64,000 bases of DNA from positions 11,611-75,610 of the forward strand of contig GG745389.1 in NCBI GenBank assembly GCA_000151295.1, in the 5' to 3' direction. Source of the stretch: Allomyces macrogynus ATCC 38327 (Eukaryota > Blastocladiomycota > Blastocladiomycetes > Blastocladiales > Blastocladiaceae). The notes below the pieces were generated by a model. That model was not told where the DNA came from. It searched no databases and saw nothing but the letters and a program-made list of their open reading frames with translations. A program made the translations under genes and the position numbers. Shown piece after piece: positions 9,060-54,953 of the stretch (the stretch's first letter is position 1; every line of letters begins with the position of its first letter).

Positions 9060-10079
9060 TCACCCTATTACTCCGCCGCGGTACCGCAACCCCACCACAA
9101 AAATGAGGTCCGTCCTGACCGCGCTCCGTGTAATTGTCGGTCGCCACGCGTCGCAGCACTGGCGAGCCGCCTTCCACATGCCGCCACACGTGCACCGAAC
9201 ACCCTTGAACCGGCGCCGGCGCACGCCAATCGACTCCATGAGCGCCGCATCCCAGGGCGTGTTGGCGCCGCCAATCGAAAGACCGAGTGCCGACCGCACG
9301 TCGACCGACCGCACGCCGTCGTCGACGTCGCCCGTGTAGAGGAACGGTGAGGCTGGCGAGAGCAGGAGCGCACCGAGCCGGTCGCGCGCGAGCGCGGCGA
9401 GAACGGTGACGGGAAGTCGCACAAGTGCGTCGGGTGGAGGTGGGAGCGGCGGTGGCGTTCGTCGCACCGCTTTTGCGTCGCGTTGGGGACGGGCGGCGGC
9501 AGAAGCGCGATCCGGCGAGTATGCAACGTCGTCTGAACCTGCGTCGTCACAATCGCCACGACCGCTGCCGTTTATCGCGCCGTTGCTTCTGCCACGGTTT
9601 CGACTTATTGCGCCGTCGTGATCGTCGCGGCGAGACGCCCGTGCGGGGGAATGCGCCGCACCCACGCTGTCTCCCCCGCGATGCCGACGAGCGCCGTCGC
9701 CAGCCAGATTGCGCGCGATGATGGTCGCGACCGTCGTGTCGTCGTAGTCGAGAAAGACGGGCGTAGACTCGGTGCAGAGCGCAGTCGTCTCCGCCTCGAG
9801 TGCCAGGAGCGCAGAGACGACTTCGGGGCTGGCCACGGTGGCGGACATGAGGGCGTCGGTAGCGCGGCGCATATCGGCCGGACGCGCGCAGAGTGCGCGC
9901 TGCGGCCATGTACTCCCGTGGTCAATGCCGACAAGGTCGCATGCTGGCTGCGAGAGAGAGAGCGAGTGCGTGGTCGGGAACTCGACGGGGTCGGCTGGGG
10001 CGAGAGCGGCAGGAGGCGTGGACCGGTGGTGGGCTCTTGGGCCGAGGAGGGCGGCACTAGGAGCTGGTATTGTTGTCAT
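9060..10079 (-). CDS. Multi-copy family protein, intact copy with one C-terminal module
   Basis: An uninterrupted frame of 339 residues starts at the ATG in MTTIPAPSAALL. I do not recognise the family. An N-terminal part (DMRRATDALMSATVASPEVV) aligns with the copy at 11.2-12.1 kb; a linker rich in Arg, Asp, Ser and Pro follows. The last about 120 residues are the conserved module: LLLSPASPFLYTGDVDDGVR, then RSALGL, TPWDAALMESIGV, CTCGGMW, QCCDAW and a terminal FVVGLRYRG. Four Cys in CxCG-x7-CC-like spacing suggest metal binding, which is inference. This copy is CpG-rich like the core genes. It and the next copy at 11.2-12.1 kb are in tandem on the same strand. Function is unknown. Confidence 0.7.
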   Translation of the reverse strand: MTTIPAPSAALLGPRAHHRSTPPAALAPADPVEFPTTHSLSLSQPACDLVGIDHGSTWPQRALCARPADMRRATDALMSATVASPEVVSALLALEAETTALCTESTPVFLDYDDTTVATIIARNLAGDGARRHRGGDSVGAAHSPARASRRDDHDGAISRNRGRSNGAINGSGRGDCDDAGSDDVAYSPDRASAAARPQRDAKAVRRTPPPLPPPPDALVRLPVTVLAALARDRLGALLLSPASPFLYTGDVDDGVRSVDVRSALGLSIGGANTPWDAALMESIGVRRRRFKGVRCTCGGMWKAARQCCDAWRPTITRSAVRTDLIFVVGLRYRGGVIG

Positions 10080-11166
10080 CGCGCGCGGTCGTTGCAGGAA
10101 GTTGGAAATGGCGTGGGTGAATAGATTTGCAGGGAGGTGGAAAGCATCGTTGCTGCTTGATGCTATTTGGAGTTTGGAGGGGCATTGCTGGCCACCTCCA
10201 GCGCGACCTCCCACGTTCGGCATCGCCGTCCATCGGTCATGTACGCCCAAACGACACTCCACCGCGCGGCTCGCCACTCGATACTTTCCACATCGTTCAG
10301 CGCCATTTTGCCAGATGACCGACTTGCCGCGCTCCTTCTGTCCCCCGCACTGCCCTGTGTGCGAGATTCGCGTCGCTGTGCATCGTGAGCCACTCTCAAA
10401 TTTTTAATAATGCTACGGTTGGGATTCCTGCTCATGCATCTTCCTCCAGAGTCGCATTGGGTGCGGAACAGCGGGTGATGTTTAGCTAGCAGTGATACGA
10501 TCCCAGAAGTCTGTCAGCTGACCTGAAATGGTAGTTGAAGTATTGGCTTTTCTGAGCCGTGGATGATACAAAACGCGAGGATACATTTTTGTGTTGAATG
10601 TTGGCGGCTACAATCCGCGATCAATTTCTCGTGATCACGTCAGAGCATAACAGATCAATTATTGATCTGGTCGTGAGTTGAAGCCGTTTGTGGCAATTCA
10701 AACGCCGAGATCATTCATAAAACAAAAAGATGCGAAGACGTTGGCATCGGTGGCCGTTGAAGTCCCTAGATGGCCGGAAACCGCCATGATCACATCATAT
10801 CCTTTGCGGCAACATAGCGCCTGGCACGCCTGGCAGGCCACTTGAAAGATCTCCATCCTTTTGCGTCACCCTTTCGCGTCTTCTCCATGGAAACCGCAAT
10901 AAACATCAGGAAGAATTCATCGATACTGTTTTTCCAGGCACTTCCTCCGTGGCAAAAGCACCAAACTCCGCCTGAGACCATATCGAACAAGATCAAACAC
11001 CTCCATTCGTTGGCGCACTACGGTCTGCCTCCATGCGCCTTCAACAAGCATGAGCACTCGCACACATCCATCAACGCGTCACCACAACCGGCCAGTCGCG
11101 TCGCCGACCCCGTACCATCATGCCGCGCATGACGACATCCTCACCACCTGTCCGCTCCACACTCCC
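10080..11166. other. Intergenic, AT-richer, no supported gene
   Basis: About 1.1 kb between two tandem family copies. The part from about 10,400 to 10,980 is clearly richer in A and T than its surroundings. Only short open frames are found and none carries a recognisable motif. Confidence 0.45.
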
Positions 11167-12107
11167 TCACCGCCGCCGGCGCAACCCCACATAGAACACG
11201 ACCCCACCGACGCGCGCCGCGGCGCCATTCACGGCCACCCACCGATCGCAGCACTGGTGGTCGGGCAGGTACATGCCGTCGCACGCCTGGCACACGCCTG
11301 GCTGCTGGTGCCGCGTCACACCAATTGACTCCATCAAGTCCTGGTCCCATGGGAGGTTCGGCCCGCGGGGCGACGCACCAAACGCGGCGCGCAACGTCGC
11401 ACCGCGTACACCGTCGCGCTTGTCGCCTGTGTACTCAAATTGGCCTGTCTTGGAAAGCAATTGCTGGCCGAGCGGGTCGTGTGCAAGAGCCGCGCGCACA
11501 GGGGGCTGGGAATGACGCAAGGGAACCGGGCGGCGCTCGCGGCAGCCCGATACTGGCCCATTTCCGAGTTCTTGTCGTCGTTGTTGTCATCACTACCGTC
11601 CGACCTGTCGAGTTCGTTGCGGATCGGCAAGTCCCGCGCGCGGTTACGCGTCTGGAACGTCGGCTCAGCGACCGGCGGGCGGTCCAGCGGCCGCTGCGCC
11701 GGCGGCGGCGGCAGTAGCAAGTCGTCCTCGTCACGACTCCGTTTCCCGCGGCGCAACTTCGTCGACCGTTCCGTCGCGGCCGCAGCGGTCGTCCCAATCG
11801 TCTCCAGCACGTGGTCTGGCAAGAGCATCGCGTACTTGTCGTGCAGCGCGAGCACGTCGGCCTTGAGCGCGGTCAGCACCGACACGAGTTCGCGCGCGGC
11901 GTTGCTCGTCGGGTCGTCGGCGAGCACCGCGTCAGCGGCACGGCGCATCTCGGCCGTGTTTGCGACCGCGTCCTCCAGCCATTGTGCGACGTGGTCGACG
12001 ACAAGATTGTGGGCTTGGGCGGCAATCGCTTGTGATTGGGCGAGCATCGACTGGACGCGGTCGGCGGTGCCAGGGACGGCGGCGGGCGGGGGCGCGGGGC
12101 CGAACAT
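11167..12107 (-). pseudogene. Multi-copy family member with a frame break between its halves
   Basis: The N-terminal half starts at the ATG of MFGPAPPPAAVP (12107). It carries the helical segment AQAHNLVVDHVAQWLEDAV and EMRRAADAVLADDP, then a basic cluster (KLRRGKRSRDEDD, nuclear-signal-like) and an Asp/Asn-rich stretch. The C-terminal module is in another frame and ends at 11167: LLSKTGQFEYTGDKRDGVRG, LPWDQDLMESIGVTR, CQACDGMY, QCCDRW and FYVGLRRRR. The change lies between about 11,510 and 11,600. A one-base indel explains it; I found no convincing intron with the right length. If a spliced form exists, the gene could still be active. Confidence 0.65.
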
Positions 12108-12720: not shown

Positions 12721-13119
12721 TTCTCGCCGTTGTCATGGCCACCGCGCGATCCCGTGGTCCTTGCGCGCCTCGCCAAGCATCCGATTAGCATGCGGCATTT
12801 GAAATTGGACCTGCAATTGTCGCGACAGGCGATTCACGCGACGTCGTCTTTCCGGCAGAAAACAACCGCACGATTAAACGACCGCGAAATCGACCCCTTG
12901 TTGTGGCCAAACGCCGTGGATTTGGCCAAGTATGGAGTGTTTTGCGACGAGATGTGGTACGTGTGTCGCATTTGCTACCAGGCGTCGTTGGAATTTCGTC
13001 GGTGTTGCGATATTGAGGCGAACAAGGGCGATTGCCTTGTGGGACTGCGACGGCATCCAGAGGCTGCAGATAACTGGTGTGGTGACATGAACCTGGCGTG
13101 TCAGGATATTTTATTTTGA
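12721..13119 (+). pseudogene. Diverged C-terminal module of the multi-copy family
   Basis: The frame reads PPRDPVVLARLAKHP, then a diverged middle, then VCRICYQA, RRCCDIEA and CLVGLRRH. This follows the second module of the 53-55 kb copy (PPRDAALRARLEH..., CCDVC, HRCCGVW). The TG-x3-D loop has lost its usual residues. No N-terminal half is attached, so it is best read as a truncated relic. The stop follows the sequence DILF. Confidence 0.5.
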
Positions 13120-17426: not shown

Positions 17427-18088
17427 ATGATCCCCTCCAGACCTGCACCGCCAGCGGGCGCCGACCAGCAACGCGAGCTCGCGCGGTGGCGCGCGGCCAC
17501 TGTGAACCAGGCGCAGCAACTCGTGCTCGACCACGCGCACGACCTTCTCCAGGCGAAGACTTCGCGCGCCAAGGACACGCGCGCCATGGCCGAGACGCTC
17601 GTGGCCGATGTGGCCACCGACACGAACGCATACGATCTCGTTCGCGCGCTCCGCACGCTCGAGAATGATTTGATCTCCCCAGCACCACCGTGCTCGCCAC
17701 CCTGCCCACCCCGTGGTCGCCGCACGCCTCGCTCGACCGGTTCCTCGAATTTCAAACCCCACTCGGCGCGCTTTTCCTCTCCCTGACGTCCCCCTTTATC
17801 GCCACCGGCTCCCCACACGACGGCGTCGCGGCGGCGGCCATTCGTAGTGCGCTCGGACTCGCCTCGCCGCGCACGCGCCTGCCGTGGCCACGGGGCGGGA
17901 CTCTGGAGGCGGCGGGCGTGATGCACGCCGCGGTCGCGCGCCTGTGCTGCTCGGCGTGCGACCAGATGCGGTGGCACCGGCGGTCGTGTCTGTGTGCGCG
18001 CGATGCATTGGTGCGTGGCGACATGCCGCCAACGTGGAACCAGCGGGTGGTTGTGGTTGGGGTGCGGCGTCGTGCCCCGGGAAATTGA
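17427..18088 (+). pseudogene. Short multi-copy family member with a frame break
   Basis: The N-terminal frame starts with MIPSRPAPPAGADQQ and holds the helical segment RWRAATVNQAQQLVLDHAHD, then LVADVATDTNAYDLVRAL. After LENDLISP the reading passes to another frame, which has a TGA just upstream (17,666-17,668). There the module reads FLSLTSPFIATGSPHDGV, IRSALGL, LPWPRGGTLEAAGV, CCSACDQM, and ends VVVVGVRRRAPGN. The second Cys pair is altered (SCLC). The linker seen in other copies is nearly absent. Either an indel or an unseen splice joins the halves. A run of 17 G follows the stop. Confidence 0.6.
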
Positions 18089-18091
18089 GCC

Positions 18092-18527: not shown

Positions 18528-19717
18528 ATGCAAGCCCCAGCACCAACAGCAGCCGCATGCGTCCCTGACCTGCCATCACAGTCTGCCAGCATCGACCTGC
18601 ACAAACTGTTTCAGCAATCACGGTCAATCATTCAGCAGGCACACGATCTCGTTGTTGAACAAGCGACTGGCATCTTGCACGACGCCATGGCCTGTGCAGC
18701 TGCTGAATGTGTTGCAGCCAAGGCACTTGTCACTGAATTTGGAACAGATGCAGCTGCCCATTTGGTTGCCAACTTGGACGCTCTCAATGTTGAGTTAACC
18801 ACTGCACCAAAACCTGATCAAGGACAGCAGTGCTGGATTCACCATTCCAACACTCAAGGCTGATCTAGATGCACTGTGTGTCCAGTATGATGCTCAGTTT
18901 CACAGTCACTGCATGGTGCAGCACGTGGCTGCAGCTGCACCTCCACCTTGTCTGGATGAGGAACATGGTGGTGTTTTGGATGCAATTAGTCGGCCAGGTG
19001 GTGTGGGCGGTGTCACATGGGCCTTCCTTGAACCACCAGGTGCCACTGTGGAGGGCCAAGAGGCTGACCTTGCCAAGGCTGTCTGCACTACTTGTCTGAC
19101 AGATGGTGCTGCCACAGAGAATCATCACGTCCATCTCGCCTCGCCAGCAGCCTTCGACAGATTCGGGGTGTGATGATCCTGCCTTCCTTGCTCCTGCTTG
19201 ACCGATTCGGCCACTGGATGCGACTCATCCAGCAAGCCAATGCCACCACATGGCCCAGGTCTGCATCACCCTCGATGATAATGTTTCAGACTCATCTGAC
19301 CAGTCGGAGACCGAGGCTCCTGCTCCTCTTCATCACTCGTGCGATGCACCAATCTCTTCTGCTCTCCCAGCCTGGCCTCCACATGACCTTGATGCACATG
19401 CCCAACTCAAGTGCAATCCCATGGGCCGCCTGCTCTTGCATCCCGACGCACCCTTTCTGGTGACTGGCAAGGAGAAAGATGCGGTACTTGTGGCTGATGT
19501 GAATCGTGCGCTCAAGCAGCAGTGGTACCATTTAGTGCTGTGCCCCAAGCATGCAGTCATGGCTGCATTTGGCGTCTATCACGACGAGCAACCACGGCCC
19601 TGCTGTGACCAGTGCAAGACGGTCTGGTCGACGAGTAGCGTGTGCTGCTTGGCCATGACGACAGTGCGCTCATGTATTGTGGGTCTGTGCTGTCGTGAGG
19701 ATGCTGATGGGTGTTGA
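18528..19717 (+). pseudogene. Multi-copy family member, broken and CpG-depleted
   Basis: Three frames must be joined. The first (18528-18863) begins MQAPAPTAAACVPDLPS and holds FQQSRSIIQQAHDLVVEQAT plus TDAAAHLVANLDAL. The second (from about 18,866) continues LKADLDALCVQYDAQ, as in the copy at 11.2-12.1 kb. The third (19250-19717) holds LLLHPDAPFLVTGKEKDAV, a diverged middle, CCDQCKTVW, SVCC and IVGLCCRED. The sequence is strikingly poor in CpG and rich in TG and CA: I count 3 CpG in 18,841-19,080. The copy is very probably dead. Confidence 0.65.
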
Positions 19718-22301: not shown

Positions 22302-24241
22302 ATGCACCCGTCACCGCTTGTCAGGCCCAGAATGAAGATCCTCGCCCCCAAGTTCACGCCCAACCGGCTCTACATGCGCACCGACGAGCTCGCCAATGCG
22401 CTTGCGCACGCACAAGGCCGCCCTGGATGCGGCAAAGGCGGTCAATGTGGCGTGGAACGACTTGGTCATAATGATGACCGGCCTGCTAGCTGGCGCGCAA
22501 GTCCTTGCCACAGAACATGCAGTCCCCATCAACATCGACCTCGTTGCTGCGATCACAGAGATCAAGCGCAAGCAGGTCGAACTGAACGCTAAGCACGCCG
22601 ATATCATGTGCCTTTTGTATGTCGGCGCCGCTGCGATGTGCAGCCGGTCGAAATCCGGGACGACGTGGGCTAGGACAATGACGAAGACGCGAGTGCCGCT
22701 GAGTGCTCGCCGCGCGCCGACAAGCGCGAGCGTCGTGACGGCGCGTCGTCGTCGAGTGGCGACGACGAGGTCGTGGTCGTGGAACCTGTTCGTCTCGATC
22801 GCGCAGGGGCGCTGGGGACGCCCGACCGCGTCGACAATCGGGTCCACCGTTGCGTGCCGGACGCGCCAGTCGTGCGCGCTGCTGTTGTGGACGACAGCGA
22901 TCAGTTGGTGGCAGCTGCTCGCCACAGATCCGCAACTGTTTGCAGGTGATCACGTTGAGCGACAGTGACAGCGACGAGGCCGAGGACGAGGGCAAGGTTA
23001 TGGACAGCGACGTGGAAATGAACGACTTCGCGCATGTGCCCCTCACCGCGGGCACCGACCACGACGACGAGCGCGAGGAAGAGGTTGAGGACGAGGGCGC
23101 CGCCGATCGTGCAGCGGCTGCGCGGCCGCACGCTTCAACGCCGGCCGCCGCTCGCGCGCGCAGGCGACTGGTCGCGCGCACAAGAAGTCGTCGCCAGCCG
23201 CCCGTCCACCGAGAATGACGCGCATGGCTGTGCGCGCGGCCCTTGCGAACAACGAGTTTGGTACCATCGCATTTGGGCCCGGTTCCCCGTCTCGTCGTGA
23301 CAGGCAGCCGGTGCGACTACAATCTGTTACACGACGTGCGCACGCAATTTGGAGCCGCCATTGGCTCGATGCGTTTGGACCACGCGCTTTTGCGAATGGT
23401 CGGGGTGCACGTCCGGGCCGATAAGGAGGTCTGCCGTGCGTGCAAGAAGGTCTGGCGCAAGACCAATCGGTGCTGCGACAAGTGGGCTCCCCCAGGCGGC
23501 GGTGGCGCGGGAACCAAGAAGAGAACGCTGCTCGTCGGTGTCGCTCATGGCGATTTTGTCGACAATGACGCGCGAGCTGGTTGGCGACGTGGATGAGCCG
23601 CGCATTGACGAGGAGGTGGTCGTGTCGTCGTCGAATTCGGTGCGCGCGTCGCGGCCGCGCCGATCGGCGTCGCGCAAAGAGTACCGGGAGCGGCGAGACT
23701 CGACGGACGATGAGTCGTCGTCGGGCAGCGACGACGAGGCCGATTACGAGAACAGCGCGCTTGAAGGCGAGGAGGAGGAAGAGGCGATGGACAGCCGCAC
23801 GTCATCCCGCGCTTTGTCCCGCGCGTCGCCTGCGCTTCCGCCGCTATTCGTAAAGCGCGACCGTGACATGCCCGACGTTGACGCGACGTGGCCGCCGCGC
23901 GACGCGGCGTTGCGCAAGTGGCTCGGGGGCACGTCGCTAAGAAAGCTTCTCTTGAAGCCCGACTCACCCTTCGTGGTGACTGGCAGCAACCGCGATGCTG
24001 TCGCCGCACCATTCGTGTGGAAGACGTTGAAGATCAATGACAAGGGCCGCGGGGTCAAGTGGTGGGACGAGGCAATCATGGCGGAAATTGGTCTCTCGAA
24101 AAAGTTGCAACAGAAGTGCTGCAAGTAGTGCGAGTAGCTGACGGCGAGCGACCATGGATGCTGTGAGGTTTGGGACCAGACAAACGGAAATCCCGCGACA
24201 TGGCCGTGGTCGTGGTCGGGCTGGCCCAGCGCGCGACGTGA
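22302..24241 (+). pseudogene. Two-module multi-copy family member, multiply broken
   Basis: This is the damaged partner of the copy at 53.0-55.0 kb. Its N-terminus (DLVIMMTGLLAGAQVLATEH) aligns with the partner's NLADLEAGAQLLASEN. The acidic part has ITLSDSDSDEAEDEG and DVEMNDFAHVPL. Module 1 reads ANNEFGTIAFGPGSP, LVVTGSRCDYNLL, RMVGVHV, CRACKKVW, NRCCDKW and LLVGVAH. A Ser/Glu/Asp linker follows, then module 2: LRKLLLKPDSPFVVTGSNRD, MAEIGLS, and KCCK-stop-CE-stop where the partner reads CCDVC. At least four frame changes and two TAG stops (near 24,126 and 24,135) separate these blocks. It converges on intact BOS1. Confidence 0.75.
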
Positions 24242-29518: not shown

Positions 29519-32500
29519 ATGGCCCCCCGCACGCCCGCTCCCGGCGGCGGCGGCGCGGCACTGACTCCCACTTCCTCGGCGCACGCGCACGCTCTGCACC
29601 CGGTCGATCTCGTGGACGCGTGCACGGCCGACCCGCCCACGGCGCGCGCGCTCGCCAAGACTTTGCGCGATGTGAGCAAGCAGCTCGGCGAAGTAGCAGT
29701 CGGCGCGTCGGTCGCGCTGTTACCGGACGGCGCGCGGCGCGCGTTGACGGGCACAGTCGACGTGCAGCAAGTGCTGGCCGCGTCCGGGTCACGCACGGGC
29801 AACAGAGTCTCTATCGATCCGGCGCCCGGCGGCAGCGAAAAGGCCGGGATTGCGGCGGTGGTCGCGACGCGCGCGTGGCTCGCGATGCGCCGCACGCGCC
29901 AGGACCAGGTGATTAATTTGCAGTACGTGTTTCTTACATGTCAACGAGTACCAGGGTGGATGGATTGTTAATGGTACCTCGCACTTAGTACGACGGGCCT
30001 CGGCACGCACGACGCCGTGAAGCGCGCGATCCTCGACCAGCTCCTGCGGCACTCGGCGAGTATCTCGACTTCCGCGACGCGCGTGCACACGGACCTCGTC
30101 AAGGCCCATATCTTGCTCGACCTGCTCGGATCCGCGACCAACAGCGCCAGGCGCACGTCGCGCCGGTTCGGTCTGTTCACGGAACTGCAGTACGATGCGG
30201 CAGGCGCGCTCATGGGCGCCAAGTTGTGCGAGTACCATCTCGAGTCGACGCGCGTCAGTAACCCGCCGCCGGGCGAGTCCAACTTTCATGCGCTGTACGC
30301 GGTGTGTGCCGCGGCGGCCGCAGGGGTCCCGGAGATCAAGGCGCTCAAGCTCTTGCCGGACGCGTCCAAGTACCGGCTGGTCGCGCAGGGCGCGGCGGTC
30401 GTGGGTGGGGCCGTGACGGCGACGAGTACGTTTGGCGTCCTCTTTTCTGTTCGGCGACATCGACTCGAATTCTTACCCTCGGCTTCATCTAGCCTACACT
30501 GCCATGACGCGGTGCATGAAGGCGCTTGGCATGAAGAAGCGGTTCCAAACGCACTTCTTTTCGGTCCTCGCTGCACTGCTGCTGCTCGGCAACGTCGACT
30601 TCGAGGCTGACGGCAAGAACAAGCAGTCGGCCGCGTCGATCAAGAACCCCGATGTCCTCGCCGCCGCCGCGCGGCACCTCGGCGTCTCCACGACCTCGCT
30701 CGAGACCGTGCTCACCTGCAAGACGATCGTGCACGGCGACTCGGCATATACCGACTTCCTGGCGCCCGACCAGGCAGCACTCATGCGCGACCAGCTCGTG
30801 CGCGACCTCTACGCGACGCTCTTCGCATACGTCCTTGAAACGATCAACCAGCGACTCAACCAAGCCGCGCACCAGGCGTCCATGATCGGGCTCGTTGACA
30901 TGGGCGGGATCGAGACGGCACCGACCAACGGGATCCACCAACTGTGCCGCAACTACGCGGCGGAACGCGTGCACAACATGCAGATGCGCGCGCTCGAGCA
31001 TCGGCACGCCGAGTGGGCGCGCGAACTCGCGGCCATCCCGCAAGTCTTACCCGCCGACCCGCCCGTCAACGTCATGGACGACGTTCTGTCGGTGATCGAG
31101 CAGCAGACCAAGGCGGCGGCCGCGGCCAAGGCCGGTGCGGCGGCCCCCGCGTCGCCGTCCGCCACGGGCCCGACGGTAATGCCGTCCAGTATGGCGTTGC
31201 TCGACCACCTTCACGCGAAATTCGCGACGCGCGCGCGGTACGCATTGCCCGCGGGGGATTCGGCGGCGGGGTTTGCGATCCGGCACTCGTTGCCGCACTC
31301 GGCAAAGGACACGACGGTCGTGTACTCGCTGGCCGTGACGCTCACACACGTTGACGCTCTCGTGAACCCGGAATTCATCAAGCTGTTCCGGTCCCAGTCA
31401 AGGAACCCCGTCGCCGAGAAAATGTTTGGCGAGCACTTGGTCGAGACGTACGCGGCGCCCGAACGCGCGCGGACGATCGTCGCCGGGCGTACGGCTCTGC
31501 GCCGGAACCCGACGCGGCGCGTGGCCAAGCCGAACAAGGCAGCGTTGGTGAACGCGAAACCGGCGCCGTCGCCCGTGGCGGAAGCCGATGAGGACGAGGA
31601 CGACGACGACGCGTCAGTGCCATTGTCGCGCGTGTCGAATACGGTGCTCGGGCAGCACCGCGTCGCCATGGATAAGCTGGTCCAGTCGCTCGAAGGGTGC
31701 GCGCAGTGGTCGGTCGTGGTGATGCCGCCAGGCGACGTGACCGAGGATCTGTGCACGAGTTTGGAATTGCCGGCGATCGTGTCGATGGCAAGGGCCACGC
31801 CGTTTTGGCAGTTGCAGACGGTCGAAGAAGTGCTGGCGCAGCATAGACGGCACTTGTTTGCGGCGAAAGCTGCCGAGTCGGATCGGGCGGGACCACGTGC
31901 GGACTCGACACTGCCTGGTGGTGCCGCACCTGCGGGTGGGGCCGACGACGTGATCGCAGCGCTGGCCGCGCTCGGGATCAACGTGACGGCTGCGGCATCG
32001 GGTGCGGTCCTGTTCAAGGTGCACGAGTGGCTCGCTCTCGAGGCGCACGACCTTACTGTGAACCCGGACCAGTACACGTTTGCCGATTCGCCGCCGACAG
32101 TACGCAAGGTGCTCGACAAGCTGGAGCGGCCGGAAAAGGACGACGAGACGGCGAGTATGGCGGAAACGGCCAACACGGACGGCGAGCTCGGCGACGAGCC
32201 GCGTGTCGGTCCCGCCGGCGCCGGTGCCGCGCCCGCGAGTGCGAAACCGACGGCACCACCACCACCGCCGCAAGTGAACCTGACGGGGATCCGGCGCCGG
32301 TGGCTATTCACGACCAAGGTCCTGACGTGGTGGATCCCGTCGCGGCTGCTCGAGTGGTGGGGCCACATGGAGCGGCCCGATATTCAGCAGGCGTGGCGCG
32401 AAAAGGTGGCCCTGTGCATCATTATCGGGGCGCTGTCGGCGATCATGCTCTTCTTCATTACCGGGTTCGGCGACCTGCTGTGCCCGCAATCGCACCTGTT

Positions 32501-35465
32501 TTCGGCCAAGCAACTGTTTGCGCTCAACACGGACCCGAGCACGTCCAAGTCGAACGTATTTGCATTGCACGGCGTCGTCTACGACGCGACGGGCTACTTA
32601 CACCCGAACGTGGCCGGCTTCTCGCAGCAAAAGTACCTGAACCTGCGCGGGACGGCCGATGCGCAGGCGTTTTTCCCGCGGTGGGATCCGAGCACGGGCG
32701 CGGCGCCCGCCGTCTGTGGGACGGGGCGCACGTTTGACGTGACGCAAATGGACGCGGCGAAATGCACGACGCGCGCGTTGACGGCCAGCAATTACACGGC
32801 CTATTGCCACGACTACATTTCGCTGGCGAACAAAGTGCTCTACCGGGACCCGAAGCTCGGGTGGGCGCGGTACGGGACAATGGCGTACGCGCTCGGCGAG
32901 ATTTCGCTGCATGCGAGTTCCGAGTCGGCGTGGATCGTGATTCGGGACAAGGTGTATGACGTGACGGCACTGCTCGGGCCGAACTCGCCGCTGCCATCGG
33001 TGCAGGTCGACTTGCTCGCGGCCAATGCCGGCAAGGATATTTCGACGTACGGCGCGACCTACGTGAACGTCGGGTGTCTCGACGCGACAGCCTACATTGG
33101 CGTGGTCGACCGGCGCGACCAGACGGTGTGCATGGTCGGCCAGTACATTTTGATGGGGGTCACGTATATCATGGTCGCAGTCATGGTGATTAAGTTCCTG
33201 TCGGCGTTGCAGCTCGGTTCCAAGCGGCGGCCCGAAGACATTGACCGGTTTGTGATCATGCAAGTGCCGTGCTATTCCGAGTCGACCGAGTCGTTGAAAA
33301 AGACGATCGACTCGCTGTCGCTCACGTCCTACAACGACACGCGCAAACTGCTCTTCATTGTCGCCGACGGCATGGTCAAGGGGTCCGGCAACGATAAGCC
33401 CACGCCCGACTTGGTGCTCGATATCCTCGGCGTGCCCGATGCGGACCGCAACGCGCAGCCGTTCTCGTACCACGCGATTGGCGAAGGGTCCAAGGCGCAC
33501 AACAAGGGCAAGGTCTACTCGGGTCTTTACCGGATCCAAGGGCGCGCCGTGCCCTACATGGTGGTCGTAAAGTGCGGTACGGAAAAGGAGACGGCCAAGG
33601 CTGGTAACCGTGGCAAGCGTGACTCGCAAATGGTTCTGATGCGGTTCCTGAACAAGGTGTTCTTCAACGCACCCATGACCCCGCTCGAGCTCGAAATGTA
33701 CCGGCACATTCGCAACGTGATTGGCGTGCCGCCGGGCAGCTACGAGTTCTTGCTTTGCGTCGATGCCGATACGGAGGTTGGGCCCGAGTGCTTGACGCGG
33801 CTCATTTCGGCCTGCATCAACGACTCGAAGATCATGGGGCTCTGCGGCGAGACCAAGATTGCGAATGAAAAGCAGACGTGGGTGACGATGATCCAGGTCT
33901 ACGAGTACTACATCTCGCATCATCTGGCCAAGGTACGCTTCGCAGTTTTTATCTGAACGATGCCGCGACGCCAACTGACGCAATGCGCTCGATGTAGGCG
34001 TTCGAGTCGCTCTTCGGGTCCGTGACGTGCTTGCCTGGGTGCTTCTGTATGTACAAGCTCTACTCGACGCGCAACGACAAGCGCACGCCGCTCGTGATCG
34101 CGCCGCAAATCATCCAGGACTACTCGGAGCCGAACGTCGACACGCTGCACAAGAAGAACTTGCTCATGCTCGGCGAGGATCGGTACTTGACGACGCTGCT
34201 GCTCAAGCACTTCCCCGAGTACAAGATGAAGTTCACGCCCGACTCGTGGTGCTTGACGATCGTGCCGGAAAAGTTTTCGATCTTGTTGTCGCAGCGCCGC
34301 CGGTGGATCAACTCGACCATTCACAACTTGTTTGAGTTGACGACCGTGAGGTACGCCGTTATTTGATCTTCAACGTCGTTTTGGGTGGGCTCTAATCAGT
34401 TCTTTGGTGCGACCCCCCCCCCCCCCCTAGCGACCTGTGCGGGTGCCTCATCTTCTCGATGCGGTTTGTCGTGCTGCTCGACCTGTTTGCGACGCTCGTC
34501 ATGCCGGCGAGTGTCGGGTACCTAGCCTACATGCTCTACCTGGTCGCGCAGGACTCGGAGGCGCACAAGCAGGCTCTGATTCTCGTCGGCGTCACGTACG
34601 GTCTGCAAGCCGTGATTTTCCTGATCAAGCGCCAGTGGCAGCACATTGGATGGATGATCATCCATATTATTGCGATGCCCGTCTTCTACATGTACATTCC
34701 GCTCTACTCGGTACGCATTTCCCTCTCTCTCTTTCCCGTCGGCGGCCGTCAGCTGACCCGACACGTGTGATTGTCTAGTTCTGGCACTTTGACGACTTTT
34801 CGTGGGGCGCGACGCGCCGGATTGAGGGCGATTCGGGCAAGGGCGGGCACGAGGGCGACAACGACCAGTTTGATCCGGCCACGATCCCGACGGCCAAGTG
34901 GGACGACTACAAGCGGCTCAAGCGCACCGAGGCGTCGCTCATGGAAATTGCCAAGTCGGCCGACGTGCTGAACGCGCCGCCCACGACGACGACCACGAGC
35001 CCGCGCAAGGTCGGCAAAATGAACGGCAAGTCGCCGTCCCTGGCCAACCTGCGCAGTGCCGCGTCGACGACGGCCGACGGCGGGGTCGAGCTCGGCGTCT
35101 ACTCGTCGGCGGCGAACCTGTTGGCGCTGAACAAGAGCATGTCGATGAGCAACATGCTGACGCCCGCAACAGGCAAGATGGGGTCGATGGTCGGCATGTC
35201 GCCGTCGATGAACCAGCTGTTTGCGCCGCCGTCGGCCGCGTCGGCGGCCGTTTCACGTGTCGGGGTGGCTGCGCCGCCAGGGATGCCGACGGATCACGAG
35301 ATTTGGGCGGCGGTGCGCGCGATCATGATGGCGCACGACTTGGCGACGCTGACCAAGAAGAAGGTGCGCGCCGAGTTGGCGGCGCGGTTCCAGGTGGATT
35401 TGGCGAGTCGTCGCGAAGTGATCAATGCGTGTATCGAGGCGGTGCTGGCGGAGATGCCGTGTTGA
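29519..35465 (+). CDS. Chitin synthase with myosin-like head (class V/VII type)
   Basis: Six exons (29519-29922, 29989-30425, 30493-33932, 33998-34350, 34431-34710, 34779-35465) give 1866 residues with all phases closing; introns are 65-80 nt. The first roughly 750 residues match a myosin motor domain ([40 protein letters not shown]), but the P-loop GESGSGKS is replaced by HTTGLGTH. Membrane helices near residue 920, a cytochrome b5-like region ([15 protein letters not shown]) and the synthase core follow: [31 protein letters not shown] and SQRRRWINS. More membrane helices and [13 protein letters not shown] precede a DEK_C domain at about 1808-1862. The enzyme polymerises UDP-GlcNAc into chitin at the plasma membrane. 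Substrate-site motifs are intact, so activity is expected; the head probably does not hydrolyse ATP. Confidence 0.95.
34413..34427 (+). repeat. Run of 15 C directly before a 3' splice site
   Basis: Fifteen C followed by TAG end the fourth intron of the chitin synthase gene. The run takes the place of the polypyrimidine tract. Confidence 0.85.
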
Positions 35466-36519: not shown

Positions 36520-36936
36520 TCAGCGACAGTTGGCTGGATCGTAACAGAACCGACCGTCCAAATGCACGCTCATCCAATTCAAAAAACACGACGCGAACTT
36601 CCGCGACGACCGTACTGGATCACGACCATGGTCGTGGCGCGTCGCGTTGGTAAATATCAGCGTCAGCAGTGGTACATCACACGCGCGACCCACACTCGTT
36701 AGCCTCGCCGCTGGCACACGCCGGAAACGGCAGGGGCCGTGATGCTTGCCAGGTCGGCGACCACGCGCAAAATCGTCGACCGCGTTCTTCATGGGCGTGG
36801 CAGCCGCTTCGGCGCGTCGGGCGAGGTGCACGCGCGCGTCCATATTGCGCTCTTGGGCATGTGCGACGAGTTCTTGCAGCCGCGCGTCGACGTTGGCTGC
36901 GAGCGTGGGTGGCGGCGGTGCGCGTGCGTCGGCCAT
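36520..36936 (-). pseudogene. N-terminal half of a multi-copy family member
   Basis: The frame starts MADARAPPPPTLAANVDARL and continues QELVAHAQERNMDARVHLAR, then RRAEAAATPMKNAVDDFA. This aligns with the N-termini of the copies at 37.2-38.2 kb (ALVAQATDHTTAARAQLVSR) and 50.26 kb (ALVTHAQAHHQATRRFLVER). After about 60 residues the similarity ends and no C-terminal module is found. It is a 3'-truncated copy, in tandem with the next two. Confidence 0.6.
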
Positions 36937-37202: not shown

Positions 37203-38230
37203 TTAATGCCACTGGCGCACGCCAAACACAAACCCGCTCTCGGCTTCTGGCTCCTCGTAACCATGACAGCACGGTCCGTGCGTCACGCCCTGCGCAAGGC
37301 CACACGTCCGGCAGGACCACCCAAACTCCTTGGACACGCCGACCTTGGCCATGAGCTCGTCGTTCCAGACGAGTGGGCGCACGCCAGGGCAGAGGCGGGA
37401 TAGGAGCGCGCTATCAATGTCGCGCAGCAGCACCATATCGAACCGGCTCTGCGTGATCTCAAACAGCATCCTGCGCGCGTAGCAAAGCGTGCAGTAGTCT
37501 TCGTTCAAGAGCGCGAGCAGGGCCTCGTCAATCGCGTAAGCCACTGGCATGCCATTGGCAGGTTCGCATGGTGTTGGCGCGCGGCCAGGAACAGCGGCAC
37601 CATCAATGTCGCTCGCGTCTCGCATCATCATCGCGCTCGCCGTGAGCTTCCTCATTCCGGACCTCCTCAAACAGCTCGTCTTCTTGGCAGTCGCTGCCGT
37701 TGAACTCAACCTGGTCCTCCATGTCGTGCTCCTCGTCATCGACCTCCTCCTCCTTATCGTCAGCGGCTTCGTCGACTTCACACCGATCAGGTAATACTGG
37801 TGCCTCCTCCACTTGAACCGTGCGTGTTCGCGCGGCCTGGTCGGCGGCCACCGCCATTTGATACTCAGCAACAGCCGCCACCACCTTGGCATCCGTGAGC
37901 GCCACGACGTTGACAGCCACGCTCCATTCTGTCTCAAAATTCGCCTGGACGGCGTGCGCCTGTGTGTGCATGTCGCACAAAACGTGCACTAGTGGGGTCA
38001 GCCCAAGTACGATCATGGCCATGGTCGCGACCAGATAGATCCACGACCGCGTGCAAATCGTCGAGCGTGTGAGCCATGGCTGAGACGCTGTCCTTGGCGC
38101 GTGAAACAAGCTGCGCGCGCGCGGCGGTCGTGTGGTCGGTCGCTTGCGCGACAAGCGCGTGCAAGTGCGCATCGTCGATGGCGGCAGCAGCGGCGGCGGC
38201 GGCGGGCGGTGGGACGCGTTCGTGGGCCAT
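37203..38230 (-). pseudogene. Multi-copy family member with two frame breaks
   Basis: The N-terminal frame (from 38230, MAHERVPPPAAAA) has ALVAQATDHTTAARAQLVSR and AKDSVSAMAHTLDDLH. A shift near 38,030 leads to VLCDMHTQAHAVQANFETEW and a Glu/Asp-rich linker. Another shift near 37,640 leads to the module: CYARRMLFEITQSRFDMV, LVWNDELMAKVGVSK, CRTCGLA, PCCHGY and FVFGVRQWH. The subfamily FEITQ variant of the F-x2-TG loop is shared with the copies at 38.5 and 50.26 kb. Probably dead, unless the breaks are spliced out. Confidence 0.6.
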
Positions 38231-38512
38231 GATGGTGGTGAGTAGGGTCGGGAGAAGAGTTCAACGAAAAAGAGAGAGAGGGCGTACACTGGGAGAGAAA
38301 GGGAGGAGCTTGACGACGGGAATGCAGCCCATAAGAGTTCTGGGGCTAGGTGCTAGTCAACTCTGAGATTCCTCGTCCATCGCAACATGGTTCAACCACG
38401 CATTCCATTTCACAAAATAGAAACACGGCCGCACCGGATACAATTCATGGTCGCGGCGCGTCGTCTTACCCAGCTCGTCGGCCGTCATCCAGCACCGCAT
38501 TGCCTGCACCCA

Positions 38513-39274
38513 TCAGCGCCGCCGCCGGCGCACGCCAAACACGACGAGCCCGCAGTCCACAGCTGTCGGCCGCCGACTCCAATCGTCGCAGCACGCCGTG
38601 CGCGTCGAGTAGGGCGCGTGGCCGCACGCGATGCAGAACCGCGCATACTCCATGGTCACGGCGACGTGGGCCATGAGCGCGTCGTTCCAGCAGCCAAGCC
38701 GGATCGTGCGGCCGGCGCCAGAGTCGGCGAGTTGAAAGTGCTGGCACTTGTAACTGCAGCAAGGGCCGAGTGCCAAATCGAGGTCCTGCAAGGGCACCGT
38801 GTCGCGATGGTCCTGCGTGATTTCAAACTTGGCCGCTGGTCCGCACATGAGCTTGTCATACTCGTCCTCGACGAGCGACGCGAGCAAACTCGCGTTGATT
38901 GCGGGCACTGGCACGTCCATCGGCGCACACGCGGGCACTCCAGGACCTTCGTCATCGCTCGTGTCGCTGTACTCGCTCGCGTCGTCGCTATCCAGGTCCT
39001 CGTCGGCCGTGTCGCTGTCATAGTCGATGTCGTCGTCGCTATCCTGGCCCGACACATAGTCCTTGTCGTCCTCGTCGTCCTCGTCAAGGTGCTCTTGACT
39101 GTTGAAGACGCTGCGGTCCTCATTCCTGCCCTCCACATCGGCCTCCTCGTCGCCGTCGCATTGGCTCCGCTTACGGGACGGCGGCCGATCAGGTTCATCG
39201 AGCGCAAGTGGGATCAGCGGCGCGTCCACCGTCGGTGCTCCACACGCTGCTGTTGCACGACTGCCAAAGGTCAA
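38513..39274 (-). pseudogene. C-terminal part of a multi-copy family member, no start codon
   Basis: A single frame of about 250 codons has no ATG near its beginning. It carries an NLS-like PPSRKRSQ, a long acidic stretch (DEDDEDDKDYVSGQDSDDD and more), then the module: AKFEITQDHRDTVPLQDL, CWNDALMAHVAV, FCIACGHAPY, TACCDDW and VVFGVRRRRR. The N-terminal helical segment is missing, so it looks 5'-truncated. A decayed IWR1 fragment lies just upstream (39.48-39.72 kb). Confidence 0.6.
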
Positions 39275-39475
39275 GTTCGTTTAAAAAGCACCGTAGGAGA
39301 TAGTTGGAAGTGAAGCGCATTGTTCGCGGAAATCGGAATCTGCTCCAGAAAAATTGTCTCATCGCTTTGTTACTCAAGATCTGCTGCCGTTTCACTTTTC
39401 TCAGAGCCGATGCTGAAGAACGCTTGCATTGATCGATCACTCGACCCGCACACGTCCTCCTCATCCGGTGCCAGA

Positions 39476-39661: not shown

Positions 39662-39702
39662 GTCCGTCGTGGACGATGGCTATAGGACGGATAGGGACGA
39701 GT

Positions 39703-46823: not shown

Positions 46824-47082
46824 GGTTCAATCACCCAAATGGGAGACAGTCTCGCAGAAAACACATGCAATTATATTACGGTAAGTCAATTGATGCCGTC
46901 TCCTGTCTCCAGAGATCTGATCTCCATCCAATGTGCGCAGAGGCAGCGATTCAAGATGCTGACGCTCGAGTGCGCGCATCACGACTGCTGCCGCTCAATT
47001 TGAAACAACTGTACTGGACCAATTGTGTAACACGCGCTCACGCTTCCACTCCAACGCAACCAACCCCACCGCGACTCTCAAC

Positions 47083-50259: not shown

Positions 50260-51492
50260 ATGGCCGACGCCCCCGCACCACCAGCCGCCATGGCGCCGCT
50301 GCTCGCCGGCGGCGGCGCCCGCCCAACACCAGCCGCAGTCGCTGACCAACTGCGCGCGCTCGTCACACACGCGCAAGCGCACCACCAAGCGACCCGGCGC
50401 TTCCTTGTAGAGCGCGCCAAGGACGCGGTCGCTGCCGTGATGAGATCGCTTGCGGAACTGCACGAGATTTCGACCATGGTTGGCGATACGGCCGCCGTCG
50501 TTCCGGGTTTGCACGACTTCGCCGACGTGTTGCGTGTGATTGATACACGGTCGCACGCCGTGCTCGACGAGCTCAAGACGAGGTGGAATGCGGCCGCTGA
50601 CGCCGCGGCGAGCGCGGAAGACGAGGAGGCCGATGTCGCGCAAGGTGCTGGTCGAGCTGCACTCCCGCCAGCGCAAGCGGTACCGCGGAAAAACGGCGCA
50701 CGTCGCGTACCTGTTCCCGCCATTGCCGCACCGCGACCGCAACCTGTAGATCGCGCCGCCGTCGCTCCGGCCCGTTTGCCGCAGCGGCCGCAACCTGCCG
50801 ATCGCTCCGCCGTCCCACCAGTTCCTCCTCCACCGCGGCCGCAATACAGGAGCGGGCGCGCCGCGGCCGCATTGTTTCGATCTACGCCGCCGCGGCCACG
50901 ACCCGCGACTCCCGCGTCACCAGAACCTGCGGCGGGTCCCACACGGCCCCGCAAACGGCCTCGTCCCGACGACGACGGCAACCGCCACCGCACCCTCTCC
51001 CGCACCCGCAGCGGCTCCAGCAACAGCGACGACGACGGCGCCAATGCCGTGGGCGGCGGCGGCGGTGGTGCTCCCCGCGCACATGGCCGCATGCCGGTGC
51101 GCCCGATCGACGCGGCCGTTCTTGCGCAACTCGCGCTCACCGACCTCGGCCAGCTACTTACCAGCGACTACGAGATTACGCAGGACCCGAACGACACGGT
51201 CCCGCTTCGCGAAATGCGTACGGCGCTCGGTCGCCACTATAGAAATGGCCGACTGCCCTGGGACAATGATTTTCTGGAAAGTGTTGGCGTGACCAAGGAT
51301 CGGGTGCGGTTTTGCACGTCCTGTGGGCACGCGCCGTATACGGTGCGCACGCGGTGTTGCGAGGGGTGGGCGAGGGGGAAGAGTGGGGTACTTGAAGGGA
51401 TGGTCGTGTTTGGCGTGCGTCGGCGGCAGCAGGAAGCGGCGGTGCCAGTCCAGGACAGGGTGGAGATTGGTGCGGCCGAGAACGCGGATTGA
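50260..51492 (+). CDS. Multi-copy family protein, longest intact single-module copy
   Basis: An uninterrupted frame of 410 residues starts MADAPAPPAAMAPLL. I do not recognise the family. Residues about 25-110 are helical and Ala-rich (ALVTHAQAHHQATRRFLVER, HAVLDELKTRW). A Pro/Arg-rich linker contains PQPVDRAAVAPARLPQRPQP-type repeats and a nuclear-signal-like TRPRKRPRPDDD. The C-terminal module (about 290-390) reads SDYEITQDPNDTVPLREM, LPWDNDFLESVGVTKD, FCTSCGHAPY, TRCCEGW and VVFGVRRRQ. The F-x2-TG loop is replaced by the YEITQDPND form, as in the copies at 37 and 38.5 kb. It is as CpG-rich as the core genes. A DNA- or chromatin-related role is only a guess from the NLS-like and Cys motifs. 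Confidence 0.75.
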   Translation: MADAPAPPAAMAPLLAGGGARPTPAAVADQLRALVTHAQAHHQATRRFLVERAKDAVAAVMRSLAELHEISTMVGDTAAVVPGLHDFADVLRVIDTRSHAVLDELKTRWNAAADAAASAEDEEADVAQGAGRAALPPAQAVPRKNGARRVPVPAIAAPRPQPVDRAAVAPARLPQRPQPADRSAVPPVPPPPRPQYRSGRAAAALFRSTPPRPRPATPASPEPAAGPTRPRKRPRPDDDGNRHRTLSRTRSGSSNSDDDGANAVGGGGGGAPRAHGRMPVRPIDAAVLAQLALTDLGQLLTSDYEITQDPNDTVPLREMRTALGRHYRNGRLPWDNDFLESVGVTKDRVRFCTSCGHAPYTVRTRCCEGWARGKSGVLEGMVVFGVRRRQQEAAVPVQDRVEIGAAENAD

Positions 51493-51858: not shown

Positions 51859-52690
51859 ACGAACTCGATCCCGTTCTGGCGGAGCGACTCGCTCGCGCAG
51901 CTGCTCATCTGCACCACCTACGCCGACGCGACGCCACCATGCCCTGTGCTCAATCAACGTTGCGCTGGTTCCGAACGGCCCGAGTCGCACTGTGACCGTG
52001 ATTGTCGGCCTTTCTCGCACCGTGCTAAGCCCGCCCAAGCGCGAAAAGGCCATGCATATGGTGCACGCTGGGATCTCGTACTACCGCGACTTTTCGATTG
52101 CGCTCGCTCGCGGCGACGATTTCGCGGTCGCTCGACGGTAAAGACGCCTTGCCGATGTTATCCTGTTCATGAAGAACCGTTACGCGCGCGCAACTTCGCA
52201 CCGTGCAAAGAGTACGCTGATCTGATTTTTGCTCACCGATGCGCTCACCAACCGCGCGCGGATCCTCACCTCGGCCCCCCTATATTCTCCACCAGAAAAC
52301 GGACGGCGACGATTGATTCGAACTTGCCCAGAGCACCGCCCCGACCGCCACCAGCCTTCTCCACCACACTCGGCGCCATTTCCATTTCCATCGGCAGCAT
52401 CGCCGCCCCCTCGTTCACGACCAACTACTACGCTGTTGAGTCGGCCACACTCCACCGGACCGAATCGCACCTCGACGACTTCCTGACCGCGGGCCACGCG
52501 GCACTCGCCGACCTCGCCGACCAGCAGCACGCGCTCAAGAGGACGCACCGGCGGATGCTGGATGCAGCCAATACGCTAGTTGTGTCGCGCAGTTTGATTG
52601 GGGCGATTGAACGTCGTGGGGTCCAGGATACTTGGCGCTCGTCAACGTGTCGGCATTGTTGGCGTGGGGGATGGATGCGTGTTATCGCAG
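51859..52690 (+). pseudogene. Dead duplicate of BOS1
   Basis: The sequence follows intact BOS1 from its start codon, here changed to ACG, through SLAQLL, PKREKA, MKNRYARA, the SNARE block (HRTESHLDDFLTAGHAALAD, THRRMLDAANTLVVSRSL, GAIERRGVQDTW) and a diverged anchor. Frames change several times. DNA resembling the BOS1 introns is kept (for example gacgccacc from intron 1 and ctcgtact at the second donor). It was therefore copied as DNA and not from mRNA. It is followed by the two-module family gene in opposite orientation, mirroring the 22.3-25.5 kb arrangement. Confidence 0.85.
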
Positions 52691-53031
52691 GTGGGGGGCG
52701 CGCATACGGGTCCGTTGCGCTGCGATTGGGGAAATGGAATTGTATCCGTTGGGAATTCTGGTCGGCGGAGTGAGTTAGGGGGGAGGCGACAATGACGGAC
52801 GAGTCGCGAGATTTGATTGTCGAGGTTCGGTCGGCGCGATTCAATCGTCAAGACCTAACGCAAACGCAAACGCTGACCACGATCTGCCAGCCGAAGACAC
52901 AGAATCGATCAATTTCAAAGTACAACGGCTCTCTGAGCCGACCCGTATCCACTTCCAGCATCATCACCTCAACGTCCTCCCCCCCCCCCCCCCCCCACAC
53001 ACACACAGCGAGCCTGAACAACACATCACGG
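52691..53031. other. Duplicated 3' flank plus a C/CA run
   Basis: The first 80 or so bases resemble the DNA downstream of intact BOS1. A run of 18 C followed by a CA repeat lies at 52,979-53,008. No gene is present. Confidence 0.5.
52979..53008 (+). repeat. Run of 18 C followed by a CA microsatellite
   Basis: Eighteen C are followed directly by about six AC units. The element lies 24 bases beyond the end of the two-module family gene. Confidence 0.9.
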
Positions 53032-54953
53032 TCACGCCGTGCGTAGGACCAGCCCTGCCACGGCCCTGCACCGTCGCTTGGCTACTTTGCCATTCATCTC
53101 GTCCCAAACACCACAGCACCGATGGCTGCTCGTTGTCGCCTGCAAGCACACATCACAGCAGGGCAGATTGGCTCGGGTTAACCCGATTTTTTCCATCAAA
53201 GGCTCGCCAGGCCACCACTTAACGTACTTGCCCTCGAGCCCCATGATCGTCCGGATGGCAATCATCGCAACGGCGTCGTCCATCTTCCCCGTCACGATGA
53301 ACGGGCTGTCCGGCGCCACGAGGAGCCGCCCAAACTTGGTGTGCTCGAGCCGCGCGCGCAGCGCCGCGTCTCGCGGCAGCCACGTTGGCGCCGTGCCAAC
53401 GGCGGGCATGTCGCGGTCGCGCGCGACGCTCGGCGGCTGTGGTGGTGGCGACGGCGGCAAGGAACCGCGGCGACCGTCAAGCCCTTGGCCGTGGTCAGGA
53501 TCCACCGCGTCGTCGAGTTCGGCCAAAACCTCGTCGTTGCCATCGTCGGCCTGCCGGGCCACTGCGCCGTGCAGCTTCTCGTCACTGAAGAGGGCGGCGA
53601 TCAGAGCGACCGCGACGATCGCGCTGGAATCGGCGACGACGCGACCACGGCCTCGACCACGCGCGGCTCGCCGATATCGCCGTCGTCCTCCTCCTCGTCG
53701 TCGTCGTCATCAACAAACTCGTCGCGCCGAGCGACACCAACGAGCAACGTCCTCTTCTTGGTTCCCGTGCCACCGCCGCCAGGCGGCGCCCACTTGCCAC
53801 AGCACCGATCGGTCTTGCGCCAGACTTTCTTGCAGGCACGGCAGACCTCCTTACTGTCCTGGACGTAGACCCCGACCGTTTGCAGCAGCGCGCGGTCCAA
53901 ATGCACCAAGGATTGGCCAAAGTGCATGTGCACATCGCGCAACAGAACGTAGTCGCACAGGCTGCCCGTCACGACGAACGGGGAACCAGGGCCAAAGGCG
54001 ATGGAACCAAACTCGTCGTCTGCGAGGGCCGTGCGCACGGCCGCACGCGTCAGTTTCGGCCGATGAGCGGCCGACGGCGACTTATTGCGCACGCGACCAG
54101 TGGCCGGCGACGAAAAGCGCGGACGCGCGGCAGACAGTGACAACGTGCGCAAATGTGTGGCCACATCGTGACGCTCAGCGGCGCGCTCTTCCTCGACCTC
54201 CTCCTCGCGCTCGTTGTTGTGGTCGGTGCAGGCGAGGGGAACATGTGCGGCGCCGTTCATTTCCACGTTGCCGTTGCCATCCAGATGCTTGTCGGCCTCG
54301 TTCTCGTCTTCATCCTCTTCGCTGTCTGAAATGACGATCAGGTTCCGACCACGCAAAGGTTCGTCGTCTTGCTGGTGAGCGCGCGAGCTTGGGCGTCTGG
54401 CCATCAAGTGATCACCAAAGTCCACGGCAACAGCGCGAACAACCAGCGCGTCCGACGTCACGCAGTGACGGCCAGGTTCCTCGGCACGGTCGTGCTCGTC
54501 GAGACCCGCACGCGTCGCGCCTGCGCGATCGCGATCAACGTCCAGGGCCTCACTGTCGTCGTCCACGCCCATGTCGAGTTTGCCCATTGTCATCGGCAAT
54601 TCGTTTTCCGCCCTGTCCAAAAGCGGCCGAAACTTGGCCGCATGCTTGGCCATCACTTGCGCCAATTCGTTCTTCATGTCCACGATCACGGTGACCAGTT
54701 CTTGGTGAACCGCAGTGGGATTTTCGCTGGCCAACAACTGAGCGCCCGCCTCCAGATCAGCCAAGTTTTCGAGCAGGTCGCGTTGGATCTCGTCAGCCAC
54801 ATCGAGAATGACCTTGCGCGCGAGGTTGAGCGCAAAGGCGACAGCGCGTGTGTAGAGCCTCGAATAACTCCACTGCGGTGCGAGGATTGCAGCAATTCTC
54901 CTGGCGAGCGGCGACTCGCGCGCGGGTGCGTCGGACTGGCCTCCAAAGGCCAT
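53032..54953 (-). CDS. Two-module multi-copy family protein, nearly intact
   Basis: The frame from 54953 (MAFGGQSDAPARES) runs 450 codons to 53601; a second frame continues to 53032. The N-terminus has ALNLARKVILDVADEIQRDL and NLADLEAGAQLLASENPTAV. An acidic stretch has VISDSEEDEDENEAD and DGNGNVEMNGAAHVPL. Module 1: FGSIAFGPGSPFVVTGSLCD, LLQTVGVYV, CRACKKVW, DRCCGKW and LLVGVARRD. Module 2, in the second frame: RLLVAPDSPFIVTGKMDDAV, PLMEKIGLTR, CCDVCLQ and HRCCGVW. The frame change lies in the Asp/Ser-rich linker at about 53,590-53,620. I found no intron there that restores phase, so a one-base indel or sequencing error is likely; as drawn, the product would contain module 1 only. Its damaged twin is at 22.3-24.2 kb. 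Confidence 0.65.

Follow-up and report, generated by a model that had tools for sequence, protein, structure and literature searches.

Winged helices close the C-terminus of the D5-type (SF3) primase/helicases that giant viruses, phages and plasmids encode, such as P4 alpha, pRN1 ORF904 and AsfvPrimPol, and also occur in the RFX domains, where the wing is not known to have a Cys cluster. The clustered zinc-finger factors of animals (KRAB-ZNF) are an example of DNA-binding genes that evolve by clustered birth and death. Binding of DNA by the winged helices of the D5 replication-protein class is described for P4 alpha and pRN1 (PMC4234260), a D5 gene has been reported in Allomyces macrogynus (PMC5294986), and a viral KilA-N origin has been proposed for the fungal factor SBF (PMC4862756). 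In the present study, we analysed a window of 64,000 bases of A. macrogynus DNA (positions 11611-75610 of contig C14, from a genome of 54.0 Mb in 75 contigs), in which an earlier note, made from the sequence alone, had described a multi-copy gene family with a helical N-terminal part and a Cys-rich C-terminal module. The module is predicted to share with the D5-type C-terminal winged helix the order of helices and strands, a second helix led by D-x-V, and a last strand resembling G-[VIL]-R. Unlike the D5-type proteins, the family has a Cys cluster in the wing, an N-terminal hairpin and a charged linker, and it is multigenic in a fungus; the Cys cluster also sets it apart from RFX. The likeness to KRAB-ZNF lies in clustered birth and death, since the domain is unrelated and tandem finger arrays are missing, and SBF/APSES with KilA-N offers a precedent for a viral-type DNA-binding domain turned fungal transcription factor, although the domain itself differs. 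Herein, we propose that the family encodes DNA-binding proteins, composed of a helical hairpin, a charged linker and a Cys-winged helix, that undergo birth-and-death evolution in host loci, and we assign this reading a probability slightly below one half (about 0.47).

Several findings support the existence of the family. First, a profile hidden Markov model (HMM) was built from six modules picked by hand from translations and run on all open reading frames (ORFs) of the window. Five modules outside the seed were found, with best-domain expect values (E) of 1.7e-27, 7e-25, 7e-20, 1.6e-15 and 1.4e-11, together with a half module at 12.85 kb, whose first-pass E was 0.0006-0.0015. The 19 non-seed domain matches of the first pass, on C14, two pieces of contig C12 and one locus each of C57 and C72, ranged from E 3.5e-8 to 5.5e-37, and the best reversed ORF reached 0.17. 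Second, the seed modules are related to one another without the HMM, because whole-genome searches with one sequence at a time recover one from another: the 50.3 kb query returned the modules at 38.5 kb (E 6.8e-18), 9.06 kb (6.8e-8) and 37.2 kb (3.5e-6), the 53.7 kb query that at 19.4 kb (1.9e-6), and the 9.06 kb query those at 53.7 kb (2.0e-9) and 50.3 kb (3.9e-8). Third, the pattern CxxC-x(6-10)-C-x(0-1)-C was observed in 18 of the 19 modules of at least 85 residues (seven of the 26 aligned rows are shorter and were not counted), the exception being the 9.06 kb copy, with CxC in place of CxxC. A chance similarity among GC-rich spurious ORFs could be considered, given that the guanine-cytosine (GC) content of the window, 61% overall and 54-67% along its length, yields 162 open frames of at least 150 codons on both strands; however, the single-sequence, HMM and reversed-ORF results, and the matches of an N-terminal profile upstream of modules on C12, C57 and C72, refute this explanation, whose probability is negligible. 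In the main, the claims of the earlier note that the copies form one family and have a Cys motif in common were upheld.

The features of the family in the window are the following.

9063-10403, minus strand: family copy in a single open frame of 447 codons between stops; module at 9078-9404 (TG-like, CxC variant, HMM seed); N-terminal segment at about 9774-9926, weak by HMM (E 0.02-0.03), with blastp E 3.9e-5 against the 11.2 kb N-terminus.

11170-12107, minus strand: family copy; module at 11173-11499 (E 1.7e-27), N-terminal segment at 11829-12059 (N-terminal HMM seed).

12853-13053, plus strand: half module, probably degenerate, reaching E 5e-11 after iteration.

17427-18088, plus strand: family copy, probably degenerate; N-terminal segment at 17466-17675 (seed), module at 17753-18073 (E 1.6e-15), the two frames disagreeing and the linker almost absent.

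18528-19717, plus strand: family copy, probably degenerate; N-terminal segment at 18594-18800, module at 19394-19696 (HMM seed), stops between them.

22393-23545, plus strand: broken copy; N-terminal segment at 22393-22599, module split between two frames (about 23224-23289 and 23297-23545) and sharing 70-74% identity with that at 53.7-54.0 kb.

23910-24125, plus strand: second module of the 22.4-24.1 kb block (E 1.4e-11), with two TAG codons inside.

36775-36936, minus strand: stray fragment resembling the N-terminal segment, with no accompanying module detected; local score 69 against the 50.3 kb N-terminus, reached by none of 500 shuffles (maximum 54), and missed by blastp at E 0.1.

37206-38260, minus strand: family copy, EITQ-like; module at 37212-37517 (HMM seed, single-sequence E 3.5e-6), N-terminal segment at about 38030-38167 in another frame (blastp E 1.7e-4).

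38516-39280, minus strand: family copy, EITQ-like; module at 38522-38887, preceded by an acidic linker (HMM seed; E 6.8e-18 by single sequence); its N-terminal segment was not located.

50260-51492, plus strand: intact copy of 410 residues from ATG; N-terminal hairpin at 50347-50574, Pro/Ala-rich linker, EITQ-like module at 51115-51426, 70% identical to a C12 copy (dN/dS 0.47).

53035-53706, minus strand: further TG-like module at 53041-53361 (E 7e-20), directly downstream of the next copy.

53604-54953, minus strand: intact copy of 450 residues from ATG; N-terminal hairpin at 54639-54896, acidic linker, TG-like module at 53724-54041 (single-sequence E 2.0e-9).

Twelve places had been listed in the earlier note, and a module is present at nine of them (9.06, 11.2, 17.4, 18.5, 22.3, 37.2, 38.5, 50.3 and 53.0 kb), lying at 19.4 and 23.2 kb in the case of the 18.5 and 22.3 kb places. 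The 12.7 kb place holds only the half module and the 36.5 kb place only the stray fragment; the 20.0 kb place, with a single N-terminal hit (E about 0.02) and no module, was not confirmed. The module at 23.91-24.13 kb and the second module of the 53.0-54.9 kb region had not been listed separately; the two-module layout of this region matches that at 22.4-24.1 kb.

The two-part architecture is also real. A separate HMM built from six N-terminal segments of C14 found, in its first pass, non-seed matches upstream of modules on C12 (E 6.8e-7), C72 (1.4e-5) and C57 (7.7e-5), with a best reversed-ORF hit of E 3, and therefore N-terminal segment, linker and module travel together. Both parts share a single open frame in the copies at 9.06, 50.3 and 53.6 kb and on C12, and they occupy different frames in the copies at 11.2, 17.4, 18.5, 22.4 and 37.2 kb. 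The frame change of the 11.2 kb copy may be an intron or a frame break, and none of its three single GT-AG candidates is convincing. In the copies at 17.4, 18.5 and 22.4 kb, the rules applied gave no single GT-AG intron that would connect the two parts; these copies, the 23.9 kb module and the 12.85 kb half module are probably degenerate, and at least four copies look broken. NLS-like clusters (resembling nuclear localisation signals), which had been claimed for the linkers, exceed shuffles in two of the six linkers tested, both on C12 (0.002 and 0.012); the four linkers of the window itself do not rise above chance (0.10, 0.15, and two with no cluster). In addition, one 818-codon open frame on C12 (75266-77719) encodes first a TG-like module, next an N-terminal hairpin segment and last an EITQ-like module, as though two adjacent genes lay in one frame.

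With regard to known domains, no convincing match was obtained, in agreement with the earlier note, which had recognised none. Against Pfam, eight family ORFs gave no meaningful match (best E 0.15), and modules searched singly gave best values of 0.022 among ten and 0.0057 among six, each for one member; PHROGs with five modules gave no match, and NCBIfam with four proteins gave none over the cut-off. A Protein Data Bank (PDB) profile search returned TAF5, WDR61 and similar proteins at E 0.016-0.05 over about 30 columns, but kinship with WD40 was rejected because the model has no propeller and the match spans only 'SPF..TG...D..V'. The AlphaFold2 model of the module, from window sequences only, has a mean predicted local distance difference test (pLDDT) of 79 and a predicted template modelling (TM) score of 0.73. 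It runs through two helices, short strands (helix 2 starting with D-x-V), a third helix, a long strand, the Cys loop and an Arg-rich closing strand (pLDDT 91), so that the module is predicted to be a winged helix with the CxxC...CC cluster in its wing. Thus, of the small zinc-binding fold suggested previously, the conserved Cys cluster stands, whereas a free-standing fold is not what is predicted; the structure prediction that the earlier note had called for yielded a winged helix whose Cys loop is modelled with the lowest confidence (pLDDT 59-66).

This loop bears on the alternative that the module binds proteins, as a zinc ribbon or RING-like domain, and does not bind DNA as a winged helix. 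Among six members, one touches zf-RING_16 (E 0.0057) and one Zn_ribbon_3 (E 0.15), one of ten modules touches zf-DPOE (0.18), and the confidence of the loop is low. However, these values are within chance for scans of this size, in which NO_synthase was also touched (one of ten, 0.022), only four cysteines are conserved, the fold predicted around them is a winged helix, and the top structural matches are DNA-binding or replication proteins; we regard this alternative as distinctly unlikely. In the Foldseek search against viral models, a D5 primase/helicase ranks first (E 2.9e-4, TM 0.46), and most of the named rows below it are primases and helicases; the PDB matches, all weak, include RFX domains and the C-terminus of the African swine fever virus PrimPol. 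An RFX DNA-binding profile of Pfam was listed neither at E <= 1 for the eight ORFs nor at E <= 10 for the ten modules (where filters drop most matches above 0.1), and no KilA-N match was listed for family ORFs or modules. Over 19 modules, the mean charge is +3.7 for the wing (positive in 15), -0.4 for helix 3 and +2.0 for the final strand (positive in 17); a basic wing beside a non-basic helix 3 suggests that contact with DNA might be led by the wing. The N-terminal segment is predicted to form a two-helix hairpin (pLDDT 85), and its fold search returned generic helical hairpins only (best E 1.1).

The link with D5 was further examined by aligning the C-termini of nine phage primases with that of the only D5_N match of the genome, which lies on contig C60, outside the family. 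The alignment of these ten rows with the 26 module rows spanned the full domain, and its register was the expected one (E 0.038, probability 0.7%), compared with 0.86 and 0.87 for reversed controls and 0.55 for the N-terminal family. After trimming (eight D5 against 19 module rows), hhalign gave E 0.015 and a probability of 2.9% over 29 columns, and one in 300 column shuffles scored as high; the C60 D5 alone gave E 0.15 against the modules. No D5_N or primase profile was among the Pfam matches at E <= 1 in the eight family ORFs, and the Pox_D5 profile had no match in the genome. The link is therefore structural and, like the sequence support for it, suggestive rather than proven. In a further scenario, which we consider rather unlikely, fungi would have acquired a viral-type replication domain a second time, independently of KilA-N in SBF: the C-terminal winged helix of a D5-like primase/helicase, taken from a DNA virus of this fungus's forebears, would have been joined to a dimerising hairpin, acquired a zinc-stapled wing and radiated into clustered regulators of two subfamilies. 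The C60 frame itself (568-3087 of locus L058, minus strand; C60, about 974 kb) has 839 codons with Prim-Pol and D5_N matches, being a D5-type primase/helicase, and a GC content of 41% compared with 61% in the window; it is probably an endogenous viral gene.

The copies fall into two subfamilies. In the tree of the 20 modules of at least 80 residues (six of 26 rows are shorter and were left out), a split supported at 96/93 separates two groups that correspond to the TG-like and EITQ-like loop types, confirming the two subfamilies recognised earlier by their first loop. Each holds copies from C12 and C14; most simply, the subfamilies diverged before the two clusters became separate. The 23.2 kb copy has a long branch, from which no evolutionary rate was drawn because it is partly due to a row starting out of frame. 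For ten chosen module pairs (Nei-Gojobori-type estimates), synonymous divergence (dS) was 0.34-1.48, and the ratio of non-synonymous to synonymous divergence (dN/dS), given without a significance test, was 0.37-0.76 in nine pairs, two of which include broken copies, and 1.06 in one. Fairly close pairs are the 50.3 kb copy with that at 110 kb of C12 (dS 0.44) and the 53.7-54.0 kb module with that at 23.2 kb (dS 0.34), the latter being part of a duplicated two-module block. Consequently, the recent expansion suggested in the earlier note holds only in part and not for the family as a whole, given the dS values of up to 1.48 and the presence of both subfamilies on both contigs; the best reading is a family that is mostly old and, interspersed with ordinary host genes, still changes by birth and death. 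A rapidly evolving locus for recognition (mating-type-like or self/non-self), whose two subfamilies would pair by means of the helical hairpins, would also account for two supported subfamilies on both contigs, even within one open frame of C12, and for high divergence with birth and death. Nevertheless, module dN/dS is mostly below 1, and we consider such a locus very unlikely.

The genomic distribution is clustered. Modules were found at 25 places: 12 in the window, three on C14 outside it, eight on C12 (one over two frames) and one each on C57 and C72, so that the genome search called for in the earlier note added 13. These counts are lower bounds, since 41,938 bases of C14 and parts of C12 are N and the whole-genome searches score the best candidates only; moreover, the C12, C57 and C72 stretches were chosen because earlier searches had hit them, and only C14 is an unselected sample. 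A 10,829-residue open frame on C14 is not a gene, being a run of N read through. Weak single-sequence matches were also observed on C75 (8e-5) and C20 (9e-4), and outside C12 and C14 there are few copies at E <= 1e-3, on C57, C72, C75 and C20. The family is thus concentrated on C12 and C14, with few outlying copies. Around the copies, as had been described, lie ordinary host genes: Pfam identified a choline transporter family member, an aminotransferase, Tsr1, a mitochondrial carrier, an SNF2 helicase, a SNARE, a BCS1-like ATPase, a chitin synthase with myosin head and cytochrome b5 domain and, at the cut-off only, a prefoldin subunit. The genes found in this way read as fungal.

Such a setting bears on the alternative that the copies are left over from, or were carried by, a mobile element or endogenous DNA virus that has escaped recognition, in which they would encode a terminus- or origin-binding protein and be clustered by repeated insertion. 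The predicted fold is common to viral and phage replication proteins, several copies are broken, copies lie on both strands, and the genome contains one D5_N/Prim-Pol primase-helicase frame, on C60. Nevertheless, the copies alternate with host genes, and the Tsr1/chitin synthase stretch is single-copy in the genome by DNA search. Pfam showed no transposase, polymerase, integrase or capsid in 30 other window frames (shorter frames were not scanned), and TRF (score 100) showed two short tandem repeats in the window, terminal repeats not being searched for. The copies beyond C12 and C14 are few. Viral contigs, searched with family queries (mostly single-protein scans reaching close relatives only) and with the C60 D5, gave no relative, and neither did the scan of prokaryote genome contigs nor tblastn of the 50.3 kb protein against phage records. 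In these viral, phage and prokaryote collections, the family is, as far as such searches reach, without relatives outside this fungal genome, and no report of it was found in the open-licence full-text literature. Taken together, an origin as a mobile element or virus appears unlikely.

Several other observations were made on the genome. Two host introns, in the SNF2 and chitin synthase genes, have the form GTAC...TAG by eye and are 60-80 bases long. The chitin synthase of the window lies at 30417-33956, and more chitin synthase-like frames were seen by eye in translations of C14 outside the window (77913-84185 and 139227-141728), indicating a possible chitin synthase cluster. At the edge of C14, the last 240 bases look by eye like the terminal part of a copia-like polyprotein frame. 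On C63, a rhodopsin-guanylyl cyclase frame has matches among the solved cyclases of its class (best E 3.6e-70), which suggests a zoosporic fungus such as Allomyces or another Blastocladiomycete. Kinase search rows with identical or near-identical scores for contig pairs such as C73/C75, C26/C32 and C70/C74 suggest duplicated blocks or unmerged haplotypes; by contrast, the Tsr1 stretch is single.

For the DNA-binding family proposed herein, the following mechanism may be envisaged. The N-terminal 80-100 or so residues would form an antiparallel two-helix hairpin, probably dimerising, followed by a long charged linker that is probably disordered. The C-terminal module of about 105 residues would be a winged helix like those of D5-type primase/helicases and RFX, in which the four cysteines (CxxC...C(x)C) might hold zinc and thereby stiffen an enlarged wing. 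Contact with DNA would fall mainly to this basic wing and the Arg-rich closing strand and not to helix 3, and the proteins might have a nuclear regulatory role. Repeated duplications, some ancient and some younger, within one or two host loci would have given rise to the copies, with several now decaying. If this is true, a fungal lineage that branched off early possesses an expanded class of DNA-binding proteins of its own, marked by cysteines in the wing and outside Pfam, and current annotation overlooks a group of possible regulators. If the D5 link is also real, the family would add to the examples of viral replication domains that became host DNA-binding proteins, in a lineage in which a D5 gene has been reported and is also seen here.

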